Notes under the pieces: generated by a model | Told to the model about the DNA's origin: nothing | Database searches by the model: none | What the model saw: the letters and a program-made list of their open reading frames with translations, nothing else | Assembly: GCA_015662865.1 (NCBI GenBank) | Contig: DQTH01000082.1 | Location: forward strand, 1-52,148 | Direction: 5' to 3' | Length of the DNA: 52,148 bases | DNA from: Desulfocapsa sulfexigens | Lineage (GTDB): Bacteria > Desulfobacterota > Desulfobulbia > Desulfobulbales > Desulfocapsaceae | Translations under genes and position numbers: made by a program | In this document: positions 7,806 through 21,782 of the stretch, in pieces | Numbering within the stretch: position 1 is the first letter of the stretch | Layout of the letters: the number at the start of each line of letters is the position of its first letter

Positions 7806-10781
7806 TCATTCAGGTTTTGGAAACTTTATTTGTATGCCGAGGGATCGGGTTTCTGTTGCCCCAGCTTTTTTCCATGGGTGGTAACCGGGTTTTATACGCC
7901 AGCTTATAAGATCATTATCATTAACAGGAATATCAATTTTTTCACACTCACTATTTGCCTTAATTACATTTTCATAGTGGTAGACAGAAGATTTCATGGA
8001 TATTGTTTCATCAACCGGAGCAGGATTACAGAGTTGTACAGAAAACACATCACTCTCCCAGTTCCCGATCCTTACTTCGCCTCGTAATTTCACCCAGCCA
8101 TCACTCCAGGAACCATTGGGGATTAGCCAGGTACGCCGATCCTCGGAACCACCTGTGGGAATCAGCGCCTGATAAGTATTTACAAGCGAGGGCAGAAGAT
8201 TGAACGAATCTTTAATGGCAATGGATGAGAGCTTTTTAGTTATCAAAGCATCAACTTTTTTCTCTTTAAGAAATCCATGCGTTGCGTTGATAGTTCCTTT
8301 CACCGGAATAGTGTACGATTTGATATCTCTACCAGTTCGGTAGAACATTGATTTCCAGGATCCCTTGGATAAAACCAGACCAAGGCGCTGGATATTTTCC
8401 GGCAACAAATCGGTGAGGTGCCTGGCATCACGCCAGTAATAAACATAACTGTACACTCTTTCCGGGAAACGAAAAGAAATCCAGCCATGCGCCCTGCTGT
8501 TATTCGCCACATTAACAGACATCACAATCTGATAGAGAACCACAGAAACAGAAGCAATGAGAGCCAAAGAAGAACCAAATCGTTTGGATACGACTGAACA
8601 AACAGACAGAAAATACATCCCGATAACAGCAAGAAACGGTGTAACCAGAACCGCGTACCTGTATCTGTGTACAGTCCATCCCACAATCCAGCAGAAAAAC
8701 AGCATATACAGAAGTACTGAAACAAACAAGATTGTCACAGCTATCGATTGAGAATCCCTGATATGCAAGGACCGACCTAATGCGAAAATCCCGCCAGACA
8801 GCATCAGAAAAAACACCACAGCACCAAAAGACACATAATCTTCACTGAGCCTGCTGGTACGAAGCCATGATGCGGCAGTCTTAAACATCGACACAAAAGA
8901 GGATTTCAGGGTCGCATTTGTTTCATATATATCGTTTTCAAGATAATTGAAGGCTAAATCAGTCAGTGGCCTTATTACATTTAAGTTAGAGCTGGGCTCA
9001 AAGATCTGCCAGAAATAAGCCTGGCCTCTCAAGGCTACAAAAGCCGTCTTGCTCATGGGCTTACGGACTCCGTCCTCTTTTACTATAGGCTCCCTGCTGT
9101 CGTGAATTGATGCAACAACCCTGCTCGGCCCTAAAAAGTTCCCGTACCGTATAAAATTCTGCCCATAGACAAACCCTCCTGAAAGGACCATAAAAAGGAT
9201 TAATAAGGCAGTACCTTTGATAAAAACTTTCCAGTCCAACGTTTTCACTCTGCCTGCGACAATGGCAAGACAGAGGAACAACAACCCCGGCCCCCACAGG
9301 AATACCGTGCTTTTGGCTCCTATTGACAGGCCGATACCAAGTCCTGCATAAATATAATAGTTGTATTTGGAATGTCTTACTGCCATATAAAAACAGTACA
9401 AGCCAGCCATCAGAGCACCGGTCGTAAACAGATCAGTCTGTGATGTGAGCATTTGACTGGCACTGTTTGGAATACCAAGCCAGATCAGGACAGCAATCAG
9501 ACAAAAATGTTTTGGGAATTTCAACTGCTGACATATTGCATAGATGGAACAACAGACCAGAAAGCCGCCAAAGTATGACATAAGATGTACCAGAGGATAC
9601 CCTTCCTTAAAAAACGAAGTTATCCATAACATGGCCAGATCACAGTTTGGAGGCATTACTATCTGCCTGATATCATTGGTCTGAAACTGCCAGACATTGG
9701 CTTCCTGAAGCCAATACCCAACCCTCGACAACCGGTAGTCATTGGAGTCGAAATTAAGTGGAAGAGTGAAAGCAGCCGGAATAATATAATATACCAGTAA
9801 AAAGATGACTGCAGCCAGGAGTACCGCATTGACATAGTAAACTATCTTCCGTTCCCGCGGTATTAGAGTAGTATGCAGCGAATGAATAATCGGCCCTAAA
9901 GTCTGCTTAATATTTATGACAGCTGTGGAAACAAGTCCCTGACCAGTCCCTCTGGTACAGGCGATATGAACTCCTCCCCAGATAAGTACATGACTGATGA
10001 GCAGATTTTTCCAGTTCAGGAGATAGGAAACGCCGCAAAGAATCACTGAAAAGATAACAACTCCCAGGCTTGTTAAACCCAAAAGCACACAAAGCTCGGC
10101 AGCGTTTTTCGTATTCAGACCTGAGAGAATAAGAAGTGTAGCACTGATGCTGATCAACAGCAGGATATCAATCCCCAGGAAAAAAAAGCCGGACCAGTCC
10201 AACCCCAAGAGATCCATTTGCTTAGAGATAAACGTTGAATACTCCTGCCGCTTATCCAGAACATACTTCCAATAACTGAATTGTTGATCGATTATCAGTT
10301 CCAGTTGCGGGTCTCCAGCAGAGGACGTAAACCCTATTCCTGCCCCACTGGTATTTGTAAAGTCGACTCCACGAAGTTCTAGAAAGTTTTTTATATCATG
10401 CCTTGTTTCTATAAAAACAGGGGTAAAGCCGGCCTGATGAAGAGATATGGAATGCAGGATGAAATCGGTTACCCTTGCGGAAGGATCAATTCTCAGAGAG
10501 CTGAGTGTTTTAAGGCTGGGTAAATAAAAAACCAGCTCAGCCCTTCCCGGACGCACTGGTTTCCCATGTGACTGTTCCTGAGAATAGCCCCTTGGACCGG
10601 GAACAACTGTTTTGGTTTTCCAAAAGACCTGCACATGATCGTTACGTTCCATTTCAAGCTCAACTTTCAATTGAGCTTGCTGGAAGTAAGGGGAGATAAA
10701 CAGCCACAGAACTGACAGGAGAAAAAAAGCGGGGATAAACGTTCTGGAAACAGGATATAATTTATACCAAGAATTTTTCAT
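7806..10781 (-). CDS. Large GT-C-fold membrane glycosyltransferase (GT39/ArnT-like)
   Basis: 991 residues. An N-terminal membrane segment (about 13-30) is followed by a roughly 160-residue extracytoplasmic domain, then a long run of hydrophobic helices (about 195-760) and a soluble C-terminal domain of about 230 residues. Within the membrane part, LNFDSNDYRLSRVGYWLQ near residue 345 matches the first periplasmic loop of GT-C enzymes, in which an acidic residue is catalytic, and YIYAGLGIGLSIGAKST is typical of the later helices. These enzymes use polyprenyl-phosphate sugars on the periplasmic side; the adjacent GtrB-like gene could supply one. Substrate and acceptor are unknown, but decoration of an exported polymer is a reasonable inference. 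It is much longer than a minimal GT39 protein because of the two soluble domains. Confidence 0.75.
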   Translation of the reverse strand: MKNSWYKLYPVSRTFIPAFFLLSVLWLFISPYFQQAQLKVELEMERNDHVQVFWKTKTVVPGPRGYSQEQSHGKPVRPGRAELVFYLPSLKTLSSLRIDPSARVTDFILHSISLHQAGFTPVFIETRHDIKNFLELRGVDFTNTSGAGIGFTSSAGDPQLELIIDQQFSYWKYVLDKRQEYSTFISKQMDLLGLDWSGFFFLGIDILLLISISATLLILSGLNTKNAAELCVLLGLTSLGVVIFSVILCGVSYLLNWKNLLISHVLIWGGVHIACTRGTGQGLVSTAVINIKQTLGPIIHSLHTTLIPRERKIVYYVNAVLLAAVIFLLVYYIIPAAFTLPLNFDSNDYRLSRVGYWLQEANVWQFQTNDIRQIVMPPNCDLAMLWITSFFKEGYPLVHLMSYFGGFLVCCSIYAICQQLKFPKHFCLIAVLIWLGIPNSASQMLTSQTDLFTTGALMAGLYCFYMAVRHSKYNYYIYAGLGIGLSIGAKSTVFLWGPGLLFLCLAIVAGRVKTLDWKVFIKGTALLILFMVLSGGFVYGQNFIRYGNFLGPSRVVASIHDSREPIVKEDGVRKPMSKTAFVALRGQAYFWQIFEPSSNLNVIRPLTDLAFNYLENDIYETNATLKSSFVSMFKTAASWLRTSRLSEDYVSFGAVVFFLMLSGGIFALGRSLHIRDSQSIAVTILFVSVLLYMLFFCWIVGWTVHRYRYAVLVTPFLAVIGMYFLSVCSVVSKRFGSSLALIASVSVVLYQIVMSVNVANNSRAHGWISFRFPERVYSYVYYWRDARHLTDLLPENIQRLGLVLSKGSWKSMFYRTGRDIKSYTIPVKGTINATHGFLKEKKVDALITKKLSSIAIKDSFNLLPSLVNTYQALIPTGGSEDRRTWLIPNGSWSDGWVKLRGEVRIGNWESDVFSVQLCNPAPVDETISMKSSVYHYENVIKANSECEKIDIPVNDNDLISWRIKPGYHPWKKAGATETRSLGIQIKFPKPE

Positions 10782-18032: not shown

Positions 18033-19091
18033 TTACTTTACACCATTAAACATCCAGGAACGAAAGATCCTGTCACTCAATGGTTGAGCCGAAATTTTCC
18101 AGGTTTCACCTTTTTTGCAAATTTCAACCTCAGCACTTTTATCAATGTCTTTCACTTTTTTTCCATAACGAACAACAAGACCCGCTGCGTCCTGCAGCAC
18201 CCTGGTATCCATTGCAGTTTCAGAAAAATATTCTTTTAATCCGCGTAATAACGCTGTGGGTCCAGGTCGCTCCGGCATATGGAGGAGGATATCATCTTCC
18301 TGTGCCAGAGATTCAATCTTTATATTTTCCTGTTCTTTTCGACCAAGAATTAACCATCCTCCATCAGGTAAAATAAACTGCCTGCCAATAAGCAGAAGAC
18401 GAATATCAGTTACTGTGATCTCCTCGGCCTTGATGACAAACTCGCCTTTGTAAATCTTTTCTATCCTGGTGCTGAGGATAGGATCGGCAAGGATACAGCC
18501 GCCGGCAGGTGCAGGGAAATCTGTAATGCCATAATCTTTTGCCAGTTTTATCTGCCGGGATCGTCCACGTCCACTGAAATTAAGCAGCTTCTCACGGTCA
18601 ATCCAGCCCTCTGTTTCCGCTTTTGTCGCATCCATCAGTTTTGCTGAGAGAGGCCGGAGCAGGAGTCCGTCATTAAAGGAATCCCGCTCTATTACCCGCA
18701 GGGTATCACGGCGCTGGGACATGGGCCGCTGACCAAGGACTTCTCCGCTTATGAGAAATGACGCGCCATACTGTGCCATCATTTCTTTTGCCCTGGAAAA
18801 CATAAGAATTTTACAATCTATACACGGGTTAAAATTTTTACCAAATCCGTGTGAAGGATTATGGAGCAGGTCAAGATAGTTATGGCTCAGATCATGGAGA
18901 ATTACTTCAATTCCATACTTCTCCATAATTTCCTGTTTATATTTTTCAGGGTCATCAAGTAATTCATAATCAAAAAAAGGGGTTACAAACTTCACCGCAA
19001 GAACCCGCACACCTAAAGATGCAACAAGTCTGGCAGCAAGTATGGAGTCCAGACCGCCTGAAAAAAGAGCAAGTGCTGTTATCTCACTCAT
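18033..19091 (-). CDS. PP-loop (MnmA/ThiI-like) ATPase, probable tRNA thiolation-type protein
   Basis: 352 residues. The adenylation PP-loop is SGGLDS (11-16). Cys90 and Cys93 (NPCIDCK) and Cys199 (AGGCILAD) occupy the places of the catalytic and accessory cysteines of MnmA and related 2-thiouridine/4-thiouridine synthases. Residues about 215-350 form a second domain that I associate with the NFACT-R type RNA-binding region fused to ThiI-like PP-loops in some bacteria. It is therefore likely to adenylate an RNA base and replace oxygen by sulfur, though it is shorter than and distinct from standard MnmA. Its ATG overlaps the recN stop by 4 bases, so it is co-translated with recN. Substrate unproven. 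Confidence 0.75.
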   Translation of the reverse strand: MSEITALALFSGGLDSILAARLVASLGVRVLAVKFVTPFFDYELLDDPEKYKQEIMEKYGIEVILHDLSHNYLDLLHNPSHGFGKNFNPCIDCKILMFSRAKEMMAQYGASFLISGEVLGQRPMSQRRDTLRVIERDSFNDGLLLRPLSAKLMDATKAETEGWIDREKLLNFSGRGRSRQIKLAKDYGITDFPAPAGGCILADPILSTRIEKIYKGEFVIKAEEITVTDIRLLLIGRQFILPDGGWLILGRKEQENIKIESLAQEDDILLHMPERPGPTALLRGLKEYFSETAMDTRVLQDAAGLVVRYGKKVKDIDKSAEVEICKKGETWKISAQPLSDRIFRSWMFNGVK

Positions 19092-20776
19092 CCCTGCCCT
19101 CTTCCCTTGCTCAACAGCTCTTTTGCCCAGGCCCTTGTCTGCTCAGTAACCGACTCACCTGCCAGCATTCTTCCCACCTCATCAATTCGCTGATCCGCCC
19201 TGAGCAGATTGATCTCCGATTGGGTTCGTCCTTCTTCCACGCCCTTTTCTACAAGGAAATGAGTAGTACCACGAGCTGCAATCTGCGGAAGATGTGTGAT
19301 ACAAAATACCTGATGATGAGAGGAGAGCTCCTGAATTTTCCTGGCCACGGCCTCTGCTGCCTCGCCGCCGATTCCGGCATCAACTTCATCAAAAATAACT
19401 GTTTCCACCATGTCTTTTCTGGCAAGCAGACATTTAAAGGCAAGCATCAGACGGGAAAGTTCACCACCTGATGCCACTTTTGCAAGAGGCCGCGTGGGTT
19501 CTCCCGGATTTGCCGAAAAGAAAAACTCAACCCTGTCCCATCCACTCTGCCTCAGGTCATCTACACTCTCTTCATGCTCCTGAAACCGTACTTCAAGCCC
19601 CGACTGATTAAAAGCCAAAGATGCCAACTCTTTTTTCATGGATTTTCCAAACCTTGCAGCTGTCTTTTTTCTTTGATCTGACAAAGTAGCAGCCAGTGAA
19701 CAGAGATCTTTTTCAAGTGCAAGCACTTCAGTTTCACATTCAATTACAGCCTTGTCGAGATTTTCAATCTGCTGCAGTTCGAATTCAGCTTCTCTTGAAA
19801 ATTCAATAACAGCTTCAAGGCTATTTCCATATTTTCTTTTCAGCCCCTGCAGCTCATTCAGTCTTTCATTTACTGCTTCAAGCCGAAAAGGATCGTTATT
19901 TAGAGAGTCACGATATTCTCGAAGTTTTACAACAAGATCTTCTGCCTGATAACTGTATTCAGCAAGTTCTGAAGCCAACTCCTCCGCACCTGCATCAAGC
20001 TCAGCCACCTGCTCCATATCCAGTCGGATCTGGGTCAAACCATTAAGCAAAGAATTAGCTAGAAGTCCATGTGATTTCCTGGAGATGGCAATCAGTGCAT
20101 CAGCACTTTTCAACCTTTTCTTTTCTTCACCAAGGGCTTCGTCTTCTCCTGGAACAGGATCGATGTCCTGTATCTCTTTTAGCTGGTAGGCGAGAAAATC
20201 CTTGCGTTGCTCTTTTTCCTGTTCCTGTTTCTGTAGTTGATTTAAAGCTTCACGTTTCTCCTGCCAGGATAAAAAAAGCTCTCCAAACTGTTGTCTCAGA
20301 GGCCATGTTTCACCCATGGTATCCAGAAAATCCAAATGAAAATGGGGTTGCAGCAGCTGCTGGTGATCGTGCTGGCTTGCAACATTCAATAAATTCACTG
20401 TGAGTTCTGCAGCCATTTTCACAGTGGCTGGAGAACCGTTAATATACATGCGGCTTCTGCCCTTCCTGCTTACCACCCGCTTTAAAACAAGACCTTCATC
20501 ACCATCTATTCCCTGTTTTGCAAACAGATTCTGTAGTAAAGAATTTTCCGAAGAAACCTCAAACAGGGCCTCCACAATGCAGCTTTCCTCTCCATTACGA
20601 ATCCAGTCAGATGACGCTCTACCGCCAGTAAGAAGGTGTATGGCCCGAAGCATGATTGATTTTCCTGCACCAGTCTCTCCGGTCATCACAACCAGACCAT
20701 TCCTGTCATTCTGACAGAGATCCAGATGGAGACTCTCAATCAGGGCAAGATTTGCAATTTTCAGTTCACAGAGCAT
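19088..20776 (-). CDS. recN: DNA repair protein RecN
   Basis: 562 residues, typical RecN length. SMC-like ATPase: N-terminal LCELKIANLALIES and Walker A GETGAGKS (33-40), a central coiled-coil region (about 160-370), and a C-terminal half with the ABC signature VASGGELSRLMLAFK followed by the Walker B VIFDEVDAGIGG. RecN holds broken DNA ends together during recombinational repair. It is transcribed leftward with the PP-loop gene and divergently from the DtxR-type regulator, with 119 bp between the start codons. I see no LexA box that I can identify with confidence. Confidence 0.95.
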   Translation of the reverse strand: MLCELKIANLALIESLHLDLCQNDRNGLVVMTGETGAGKSIMLRAIHLLTGGRASSDWIRNGEESCIVEALFEVSSENSLLQNLFAKQGIDGDEGLVLKRVVSRKGRSRMYINGSPATVKMAAELTVNLLNVASQHDHQQLLQPHFHLDFLDTMGETWPLRQQFGELFLSWQEKREALNQLQKQEQEKEQRKDFLAYQLKEIQDIDPVPGEDEALGEEKKRLKSADALIAISRKSHGLLANSLLNGLTQIRLDMEQVAELDAGAEELASELAEYSYQAEDLVVKLREYRDSLNNDPFRLEAVNERLNELQGLKRKYGNSLEAVIEFSREAEFELQQIENLDKAVIECETEVLALEKDLCSLAATLSDQRKKTAARFGKSMKKELASLAFNQSGLEVRFQEHEESVDDLRQSGWDRVEFFFSANPGEPTRPLAKVASGGELSRLMLAFKCLLARKDMVETVIFDEVDAGIGGEAAEAVARKIQELSSHHQVFCITHLPQIAARGTTHFLVEKGVEEGRTQSEINLLRADQRIDEVGRMLAGESVTEQTRAWAKELLSKGRGQG

Positions 20777-20850
20777 TTATCACTGTTTTTTCAGACATTT
20801 ACACATTTCATTCGTTTACAAACTTGACGCCGCAGGCAAACAAAGGTATT

Positions 20851-20878
20851 TTAACAACTATCTATTTATTCTTATAAT
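20851..20878 (+). promoter_or_regulatory. Sigma-70-type promoter for the DtxR-like regulator
   Basis: TTAACA (20851-20856), a 16-base spacer and TATAAT (20873-20878) lie just upstream of the start codon at 20896, predicting a short leader. The -10 is perfect and the -35 differs at one base. Seen in sequence; activity not tested. Confidence 0.6.
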
Positions 20879-20895
20879 CCATGAGATAAACTCGC

Positions 20896-21402
20896 ATGTC
20901 CAACCAAACGGTTATCCTCAGTGCAAGCCTGGAAGATTACATTGAGGCAATATATCATATCATCACTAAAAAGCAGGTTGCCAGAAGTAAAGATATAGCA
21001 ACCCGCCTTGATGTGAGTAGAGCATCAGTTACTGAGGCACTTCGCACCCTTGCCAGAAAAGGCCTCATCAACTATGCGCCCTATGAGCCAATCACTCTCA
21101 CCGCCAGGGGTAAGACAACAGCAGAAGATGTCATCTTCCGCCATGATGCATTAAAACGTTTTTTCATTGAAGTACTGGCCATTGACGGCAAAATAGCAGA
21201 AGAAGGCGCATGTAAAGTGGAACATTCAGCCCCACCTGAGGTCATCTCCCGTATGATCTCCTTCATTGACTTTCTGCAAGCCTGCCCGAGAGGCGGGGAT
21301 GATCTGCTCCAGGGCTTTGCAGAGTACTACAAACATGGCAAGACCAGGAACAGCTGCGATGAGTGTATCTCTTCCTGTAATCTGCAGTCACTGGAAAAAT
21401 AA
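20896..21402 (+). CDS. DtxR/MntR-family metal-dependent transcriptional regulator
   Basis: 168 residues. An N-terminal winged helix (about 10-70: LEDYIEAIYHII, the recognition helix region SRASVTEALRTLARKGLI) is followed by the metal-binding/dimerisation domain with the conserved FRHDALKRFFIEVL and CKVEHSAPPEVISRM. Cys, Glu and His in this CKxEH block are ligands in DtxR/IdeR, so iron or manganese sensing is likely. There is no SH3-like C-terminal domain; instead the protein ends in a short tail with three cysteines (CDECISSC, about 155-162) that could bind an extra metal. Feo genes, the usual targets, are not adjacent. It precedes the convergent selenoprotein gene by 19 bp. Confidence 0.85.
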   Translation: MSNQTVILSASLEDYIEAIYHIITKKQVARSKDIATRLDVSRASVTEALRTLARKGLINYAPYEPITLTARGKTTAEDVIFRHDALKRFFIEVLAIDGKIAEEGACKVEHSAPPEVISRMISFIDFLQACPRGGDDLLQGFAEYYKHGKTRNSCDECISSCNLQSLEK

Positions 21403-21421
21403 TACTTTCCAGTGACACCCC

Positions 21422-21640
21422 TCACCCATTTATCAGTTTGACAATTTCTCCGTCATCGGGGAAACGGCTCAATGCTTTCTTGGAAAATATATTCTTTCCA
21501 TCAACTACAACTTCATAAACTCCGCCTGATGAAGCAATCAACTCCACATCAGCATCAAACTCATTTTTTAACTCTTCTTCCAAACTGGAAGCACGAGGTT
21601 TATAATTTCACTTAGTGCAATATTCAATTGAGACTTTCAC
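21422..21640 (-). CDS. SelW/Rdx-family selenoprotein, in-frame UGA as selenocysteine
   Basis: Read on the minus strand from GTG at 21640 (GGAGG six bases upstream) to TGA at 21422, with one internal TGA at 21608-21610. Taking that codon as Sec gives 72 residues beginning VKVSIEYCTKU, then NYKPRASSLEEELKNEF, SSGGVYEVVVDGK, KKALSRFPDDGEIVKLI. This is the thioredoxin-like Rdx family (SelW/SelT/SelH relatives) with a CxxU redox motif at residues 8-11 directly after the first beta strand, and FSKK...RFPDDGE in its usual place near the C-terminus. Homologous continuity on both sides of the TGA makes a chance stop unlikely. A SECIS-like hairpin follows the UGA. It is probably a thiol/selenol oxidoreductase whose partner is unknown. 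Ordinary gene callers would split or drop it. Confidence 0.82.
21577..21591 (-). promoter_or_regulatory. Bacterial SECIS-like hairpin after the UGA
   Basis: On the minus strand, 16 bases after the UGA, a perfect six-pair stem CTTCCA/TGGAAG encloses the loop GTT. A short apical loop with G among its first two bases, about 16-37 bases after UGA, is the known bSECIS consensus for SelB recruitment; here the loop begins 22 bases after the UGA. Confidence 0.7.
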
Positions 21641-21669
21641 GTCATTCCTCCATTTAATAAGAATTGCTC

Positions 21670-21735
21670 TTCCAAAATACCTAAAACCTGTAATTCTAAC
21701 ATACTCTTTTGGAAAGAAAACCATCTTTTCTTTCC
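21670..21735 (-). promoter_or_regulatory. Structured leader of the selenoprotein gene with two overlapping hairpins
   Basis: The inferred leader can form GGAAAGAAAA/TTTTCTTTCC (perfect 10 bp, 21711-21735) or TTCCAAAA/TTTTGGAA (perfect 8 bp, 21670-21677 with 21707-21714). The two share the bases at 21711-21714, so full versions cannot coexist. No T-tract terminator or ribosome-site sequestration is obvious. Confidence 0.4.
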
Positions 21736-21753: not shown

Positions 21754-21782
21754 ATTACTTTTTCACAGAACTAATGTGTCAA
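21754..21782 (-). promoter_or_regulatory. Promoter for the selenoprotein gene
   Basis: On the minus strand TTGACA (21777-21782, perfect -35), a 17-base spacer and AGTAAT (21754-21759, four of six matches). Predicted transcription starts near 21747, giving a leader of about 105 bases. Confidence 0.6.

Follow-up and report, generated by a model that had tools for sequence, protein, structure and literature searches.

A SelW-like selenoprotein gene with an in-frame UGA and a predicted SECIS hairpin in a Desulfocapsa-like genome

Introduction

A minus-strand reading frame in a 52,148-nucleotide stretch of Desulfocapsa sulfexigens DNA (contig DQTH01000082.1; the whole stretch is here called the window) is interrupted by a TGA at codon 11. 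Does this TGA end the gene, or is it decoded as selenocysteine (Sec)? A first-pass annotation, made from the sequence alone, had proposed a SelW/Rdx-family selenoprotein with a SECIS-like hairpin. Comparison with related genomes makes it almost certain that the product is a SelW-like (Rdx family) selenoprotein of 72 residues, in which the UGA at codon 11 would be read as selenocysteine via a SECIS element. Papers are cited here by PMC number, and each citation refers to individual passages of the source.

The reading frame and its product

The frame (selW) starts with GTG at positions 21638 to 21640 of the minus strand and comprises 72 codons in all plus a closing TGA, and its sole break is the TGA at 21608 to 21610. 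These readings agree with the coordinates of the first-pass annotation, and the GGAGG that it placed before the GTG start was likewise read directly (Table 1). The read-through protein begins VKVSIEYCTKU, with the CxxU motif located within YCTKU (residues 7 to 11). A plain ORF listing contained nothing of at least 60 residues in this frame.

For the profile and structure searches, the query protein had Cys at the Sec position and an additional letter representing the final stop. It scored above the cut-offs of Pfam Rdx model PF10262 (77.1 bits; cut-off, 22.6), NCBIfam model NF041051 (105.4 bits; cut-off, 88; residues 3 to 71), and NCBIfam model TIGR02174 (64.6 bits; cut-off, 34.2), and these matches and the relatives described below agree with the SelW/Rdx identity proposed at the outset. 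The first-pass annotation expected automatic annotation to overlook the gene; the plain ORF listing does so, but NF041051 is a curated NCBIfam model whose name includes "(seleno)protein." The Rdx match of the frame scored 68.7 bits (E value, 1.5e-18) with one TGA inside. Solved SelW/Rdx chains were matched by sequence, the best of them being 2fa8 (E value, 7.7e-10).

Table 1. Positions of the selW gene, its predicted signals, and its neighbors in the window
Feature	Positions	Strand	Basis or remark
SelW-like (Rdx family) selenoprotein gene, predicted	21422..21640	-	72 residues, GTG start, in-frame UGA codon 11, closing UGA
UGA predicted to encode Sec, at the second redox position of CxxU	21608..21610	-	Of 82 aligned loci, 81 have TGA and 1 has TGT
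Putative bacterial SECIS apical hairpin CTTCCA-GTT-TGGAAG	21577..21591	-	6-bp stem, 3-nt loop, G first
GGAGG ribosome-binding site, 5' of GTG start	21647..21651	-	Read directly
Possible -10 box TAGAAT, within an upstream block that is partly conserved	21693..21698	-	Relatives' alignment
TTGACA/AGTAAT pair of the first-pass annotation	21754..21782	-	TTGACA 21782-21777, AGTAAT 21759-21754, spacing 17
DtxR-type regulator, convergent neighbor, not part of the selenoprotein gene	20896..21402	+	PF02742, PF01325
recN-like gene, downstream of selW on the same strand	19088..20776	-	PF02463 RecF/RecN/SMC

Conservation of the UGA and of the flanking codons

Codon 11 is TGA in all 25 relatives identified at the contig level, many of which are labeled Desulfocapsa, Desulfobulbaceae, or deltaproteobacterium. 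An order-wide profile search yielded an Rdx match in 199 of 257 genomes and none in the other 58, and exactly one TGA was inside in all 150 matches listed. In a phylum sample, Rdx matches were found in 57 of 395 genomes, 11 of the 57 being from the same order and already counted there. These genomes gave 58 matches, 53 of which bore a TGA (52 with one TGA and 1 with a TGA and a TAG), while the remaining 5 had Cys (L081, L107, L108, and L110) or Gly (L109) in place of the UGA-encoded residue. The low number of Cys forms, with 5 of 58 phylum-sample matches lacking the TGA, agrees with the cited passage of PMC1794560, which remarks that Cys homologues of SelW-like proteins are very rare, if present at all, in organisms that contain Sec.

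We aligned 82 loci, comprising the window, the 25 contig-level relatives, 30 loci from the order search, and 26 newly contributed by the phylum sample. Codon 11 is TGA in 81 of these, the window included, and TGT in 1, a tally that leans to strong matches because the loci were taken best first and include three gene-identical pairs (L021/L086, L031/L066, and L056/L057). The UGA occupies the second redox position of CxxU, as the first-pass annotation had suggested. Locus L109, which has CxxG, was left out of both the 82 loci and the stem-pair scoring described below; it is a second Rdx copy (G568:C134:8898-9113) near a TGA-bearing copy at 8334-8540. The frame interrupted by both a TGA and a TAG (G365:C32:38644-38853) may be a pseudogene, an error, or something else. 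The SelW protein of L015, labeled uncultured Sulfurovum, is identical to that of L014, labeled Desulfocapsa, and may reflect a mis-binned contig or a transfer. A viral contig (L039) with a match of 30 residues (E value, 6e-6) had no further Rdx frame in its translation and was dropped from the tallies.

When the window was compared with 15 relatives, chosen as gapless, the differences after the UGA numbered 139, 85, and 463 at codon positions 1, 2, and 3, respectively; of the codon changes, 358 were synonymous and 191 were non-synonymous. In codons 2 to 10, the corresponding numbers were 30, 15, and 79, with 51 synonymous and 34 non-synonymous changes. Judged by this third-position excess, selW evolves as coding sequence on both sides of the UGA, consistent with the claim that homologous sequence continues in frame before and after it. 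Random stops and a lack of downstream conservation in relatives had been named as findings that would speak against a selenoprotein, and this pattern was not seen.

The hairpin downstream of the UGA

The perfect CTTCCA-GTT-TGGAAG hairpin noted in the first reading is exactly present, its stem beginning 17 bases and its loop 22 bases after the UGA, with G as the first loop base. The bacterial SECIS (bSECIS) model, as given in the passages cited from PMC13188914, comprises an upper stem of 4 to 16 bp and a loop of 3 to 9 nt with G among its first two bases, the loop being 16 to 37 nt after the UGA. The window hairpin falls within this model, with a 6-bp stem and a 3-nt loop that begins with G at 22 nt from the UGA. 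Taken by itself, it outperforms shuffled sequences by a moderate margin only (z score, -2.34; an equal or better fold in 6 of 200 shuffles).

The relatives give a sharper measure. From the 81 TGA loci, 77 distinct sequences were scored for stem pairs without gaps. The stem is complete, with six pairs, in 69 of them and has five pairs in the remaining 8, and every one of the 77 loops begins with G. Pair two is U-A in 38 sequences, C-G in 35, and U-G in 4, and pair three is U-A in 54, G-C in 18, U-G in 2, and unpaired in 3. When synonymous codons of the same genes were resampled (1,000 trials), six pairs occurred in a mean of 3.5 of the 77 sequences (5.2 with local codons) and in at most 14, and shuffling of the 3' arms among sequences (1,000 trials) gave a mean of 32.7 and a maximum of 46. 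The four Cys homologues have two to three of the six pairs, about or below their resampling mean of 3.7 to 3.9; one of them, L081, is G+C-rich and has a strong fold (-25.8 kcal/mol) but in another register. Measured against the synonymous-codon controls, in which six pairs never exceeded 14 of 77 sequences, the hairpin is conserved far more than coding would require and is a SECIS element, in line with the first-pass reading.

The upstream region

TTGACA and AGTAAT had been put forward as the promoter of the gene. The pair is present at the 17-base spacing claimed; however, TTGACA was found within 240 bases upstream of selW in none of 12 relatives, and the pair was therefore rejected as a probable promoter. 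The upstream alignment covers 7 of the 12 relatives, with TAGAAT in five and TAGAGT or TAGGGT in two; with the remaining five relatives added to the motif count, TAGAAT is present in 5 of 12, TAGAGT or TAGGGT in 3, and neither in 4. A promoter at TAGAAT appears more likely than one at TTGACA/AGTAAT. A promoter scan had neither candidate among its sites, and the one site that it gave (21837 to 21809) did not exceed the yield of shuffles (one found; shuffle mean, 1.3).

Selenocysteine machinery in the genome

The genome of the window (G000) is a draft of 307 contigs that is 98.76% complete. Profile searches identified SelA (604.3 bits), SelD (370.6 bits, with one in-frame TGA), and tRNA-Sec (73.5 bits), the last of which was also called by ARAGORN as SeC with anticodon TCA. 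Among the eight matches to PF00384, two have one TGA inside, one has a TAG, and five have neither. The TGAs of the two formate-dehydrogenase-like genes sit in the sequences HCARYUHS and HCARLUHS, a motif (HCARxUHS) that we take to be the Sec site of formate dehydrogenase. The first-pass annotation had proposed to look for selA, selB, selC, and selD; selA, selC, and selD are present, along with several Sec genes, although selB was not found in the 307-contig assembly.

No SelB match in the draft exceeded the cut-off of 242 bits. The best match (188 bits, on contig C233) has all three EF-Tu domains and no SelB domain by Pfam and was rejected as a candidate. SelB-wing_3 had no match in the genome, and a fragment search with the SelB of a relative found nothing. 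In relative G101, selB lies between genes for MBL-fold and ResB proteins, and the flanking frames in G103 look alike; the best matches of these neighbors in the genome of the window are 27% and 48% identical, respectively. This comparison of neighbors covered two of the eight selB loci obtained from relatives. Neither served as a marker of the selB locus, the MBL-fold match because of its low identity and the ResB-like match, on contig C297, because it has other neighbors and was taken as a paralogue. A blastp comparison of the frames beside the genome's own selA, selD, and tRNA-Sec with the frames of the selB loci of eight relatives listed no match, so selA could not be used to place selB.

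Weighing the alternatives

The comparisons support a reading frame with an invariant UGA, a SECIS element, and Sec machinery apart from SelB, and they suggest the following mechanism. The mRNA hairpin after codon 11 would function as a bacterial SECIS and recruit SelB with Sec-tRNA-Sec, owing to which the ribosome would read the UGA as selenocysteine; charged tRNA-Sec would be supplied by SelA, SelD, and tRNA-Sec, and the organism would presumably possess SelB. The CxxU pair of the protein would probably take part in thiol/selenol redox exchange. A single stop in an otherwise intact frame also resembles a young pseudogene, or a sequencing error, in which the TGA would be a true stop, and the absence of SelB from the assembly could be read in the same way. 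However, the recurrence of the same TGA in nearly all aligned loci, the predominance of third-position changes on both sides of it, and a hairpin kept far beyond coding need make decay or error highly improbable. Even less probable is a general reading of TGA in this genome as an amino acid such as Trp. The four genes with an internal TGA (selW, selD, and the two PF00384 genes) would in principle be compatible with such a code, but TGA is the stop codon of three of the six window genes examined, with that of recN lying in an ATGA overlap with the next gene, the genome has a tRNA-SeC with anticodon TCA, and the non-Sec residue at codon 11 of selW homologues is Cys in four and Gly in one.

That selW is a true selenoprotein gene in a strain left unable to decode it by the loss of selB is improbable, if somewhat less so than decay or reassignment. 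It would account for the missing selB; near orthologues of the genes that flank selB in two relatives are absent too, as would be expected from either a deletion or a gap in the assembly. Against such a loss, four Sec genes keep their UGA in otherwise open frames. In a genus search, which drew its 19 genomes from a larger group, SelB exceeded the cut-off in 15 of 19 genomes (15 of 18 without that of the window), and two more (G105 and G106) hold it as contig-edge fragments, which leaves G112 and the genome of the window with no match over the cut-off. Given that 15 of the 18 other genomes have SelB and that the draft is in 307 contigs, an assembly gap is the likeliest explanation for the missing selB.

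Gene neighborhood

The gene downstream of selW, which we take to be recN, has a recN-like counterpart downstream of selW on the same strand in 42 of the 81 other loci, and a DtxR-type gene is convergent with selW, as in the window, in 37 of the 81; many of these loci have only ~1.5 kb of flanking sequence or end at a contig edge, and some misses may be cut off. By source, the recN linkage was seen in 17 of 25 contig-level relatives, 23 of 30 loci from the order search, and 2 of 26 from the phylum sample. The selW-DtxR-recN block (19088 to 21640 in the window) is therefore frequent among loci closely related to that of the window and missing from most of the more distant ones; within the order, too, some loci are without it.

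Because selW and the DtxR-type gene are convergent, they do not form one transcript. A literature search for SelW, recN, and selenoprotein together found no paper. It is conceivable, though we think it unlikely, that SelW, the DtxR-type metal-dependent regulator, and recN are a kept block working together, in which SelW would be the redox arm of a metal- and damage-response module and not a free-standing antioxidant. Directly after selW, at 21389 to 21414, there is a perfect 9-bp inverted repeat (CACTGGAAA / TTTCCAGTG) that reaches into the 3' end of the DtxR-type gene and could be a shared terminator, although the scan scored no terminator.

Relation to known selenoproteins

SelW-like proteins are a catalogued bacterial selenoprotein family, predicted with high confidence and carrying CxxU (PMC13188914). 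Early predictions included those in Geobacter sulfurreducens and Campylobacter jejuni (PMC1242214), and 48 SelW-like genes were reported from the Sargasso Sea in a paper that, in the passage cited, called the role of bacterial SelW unclear in 2005 (PMC1088965). A SelW-like selenoprotein is tabulated for Desulfotalea psychrophila (PMC1794560), a member, like Desulfocapsa, of the family Desulfocapsaceae. SelW genes overlooked by annotation have been described in Epsilonproteobacteria (PMC4607533).

The window gene shares with the prokaryotic SelW-like family (Rdx, PF10262; SELENOW-like) the same domain, CxxU, and a coding-region hairpin just after the UGA. There is no categorical difference, and the gene is another member, from a Desulfocapsa-like genome. 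Model NF041051 (SelTWH_Campy; SelT/SelW/SelH family), whose cut-off the protein exceeds, has a name that suggests campylobacterial members, whereas the relatives of the window are Desulfobulbales by their labels. Mammalian selenoprotein W (solved chain 2npb) matches residues 3 to 62 of the window protein (E value, 1e-4), although its chain has 96 residues compared with 72 here, and in eukaryotes the SECIS is located in the 3' untranslated region, as stated in the passage cited from PMC13188914, in contrast to the coding-region hairpin of selW.

The SelW-like family has been among the listed bacterial selenoproteins since 2005. The finding is correct and strongly supported by the sequence comparisons, and it is ordinary, as the family was already catalogued, including in Desulfotalea psychrophila. 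The selW gene illustrates clearly how a gene can escape a plain ORF listing and yet be widespread in its order, with Rdx matches in 199 of the 257 genomes searched. The linkage to recN and the DtxR-type gene in about half of the loci is the one fresh lead, a small one, on what the role of SelW may be.
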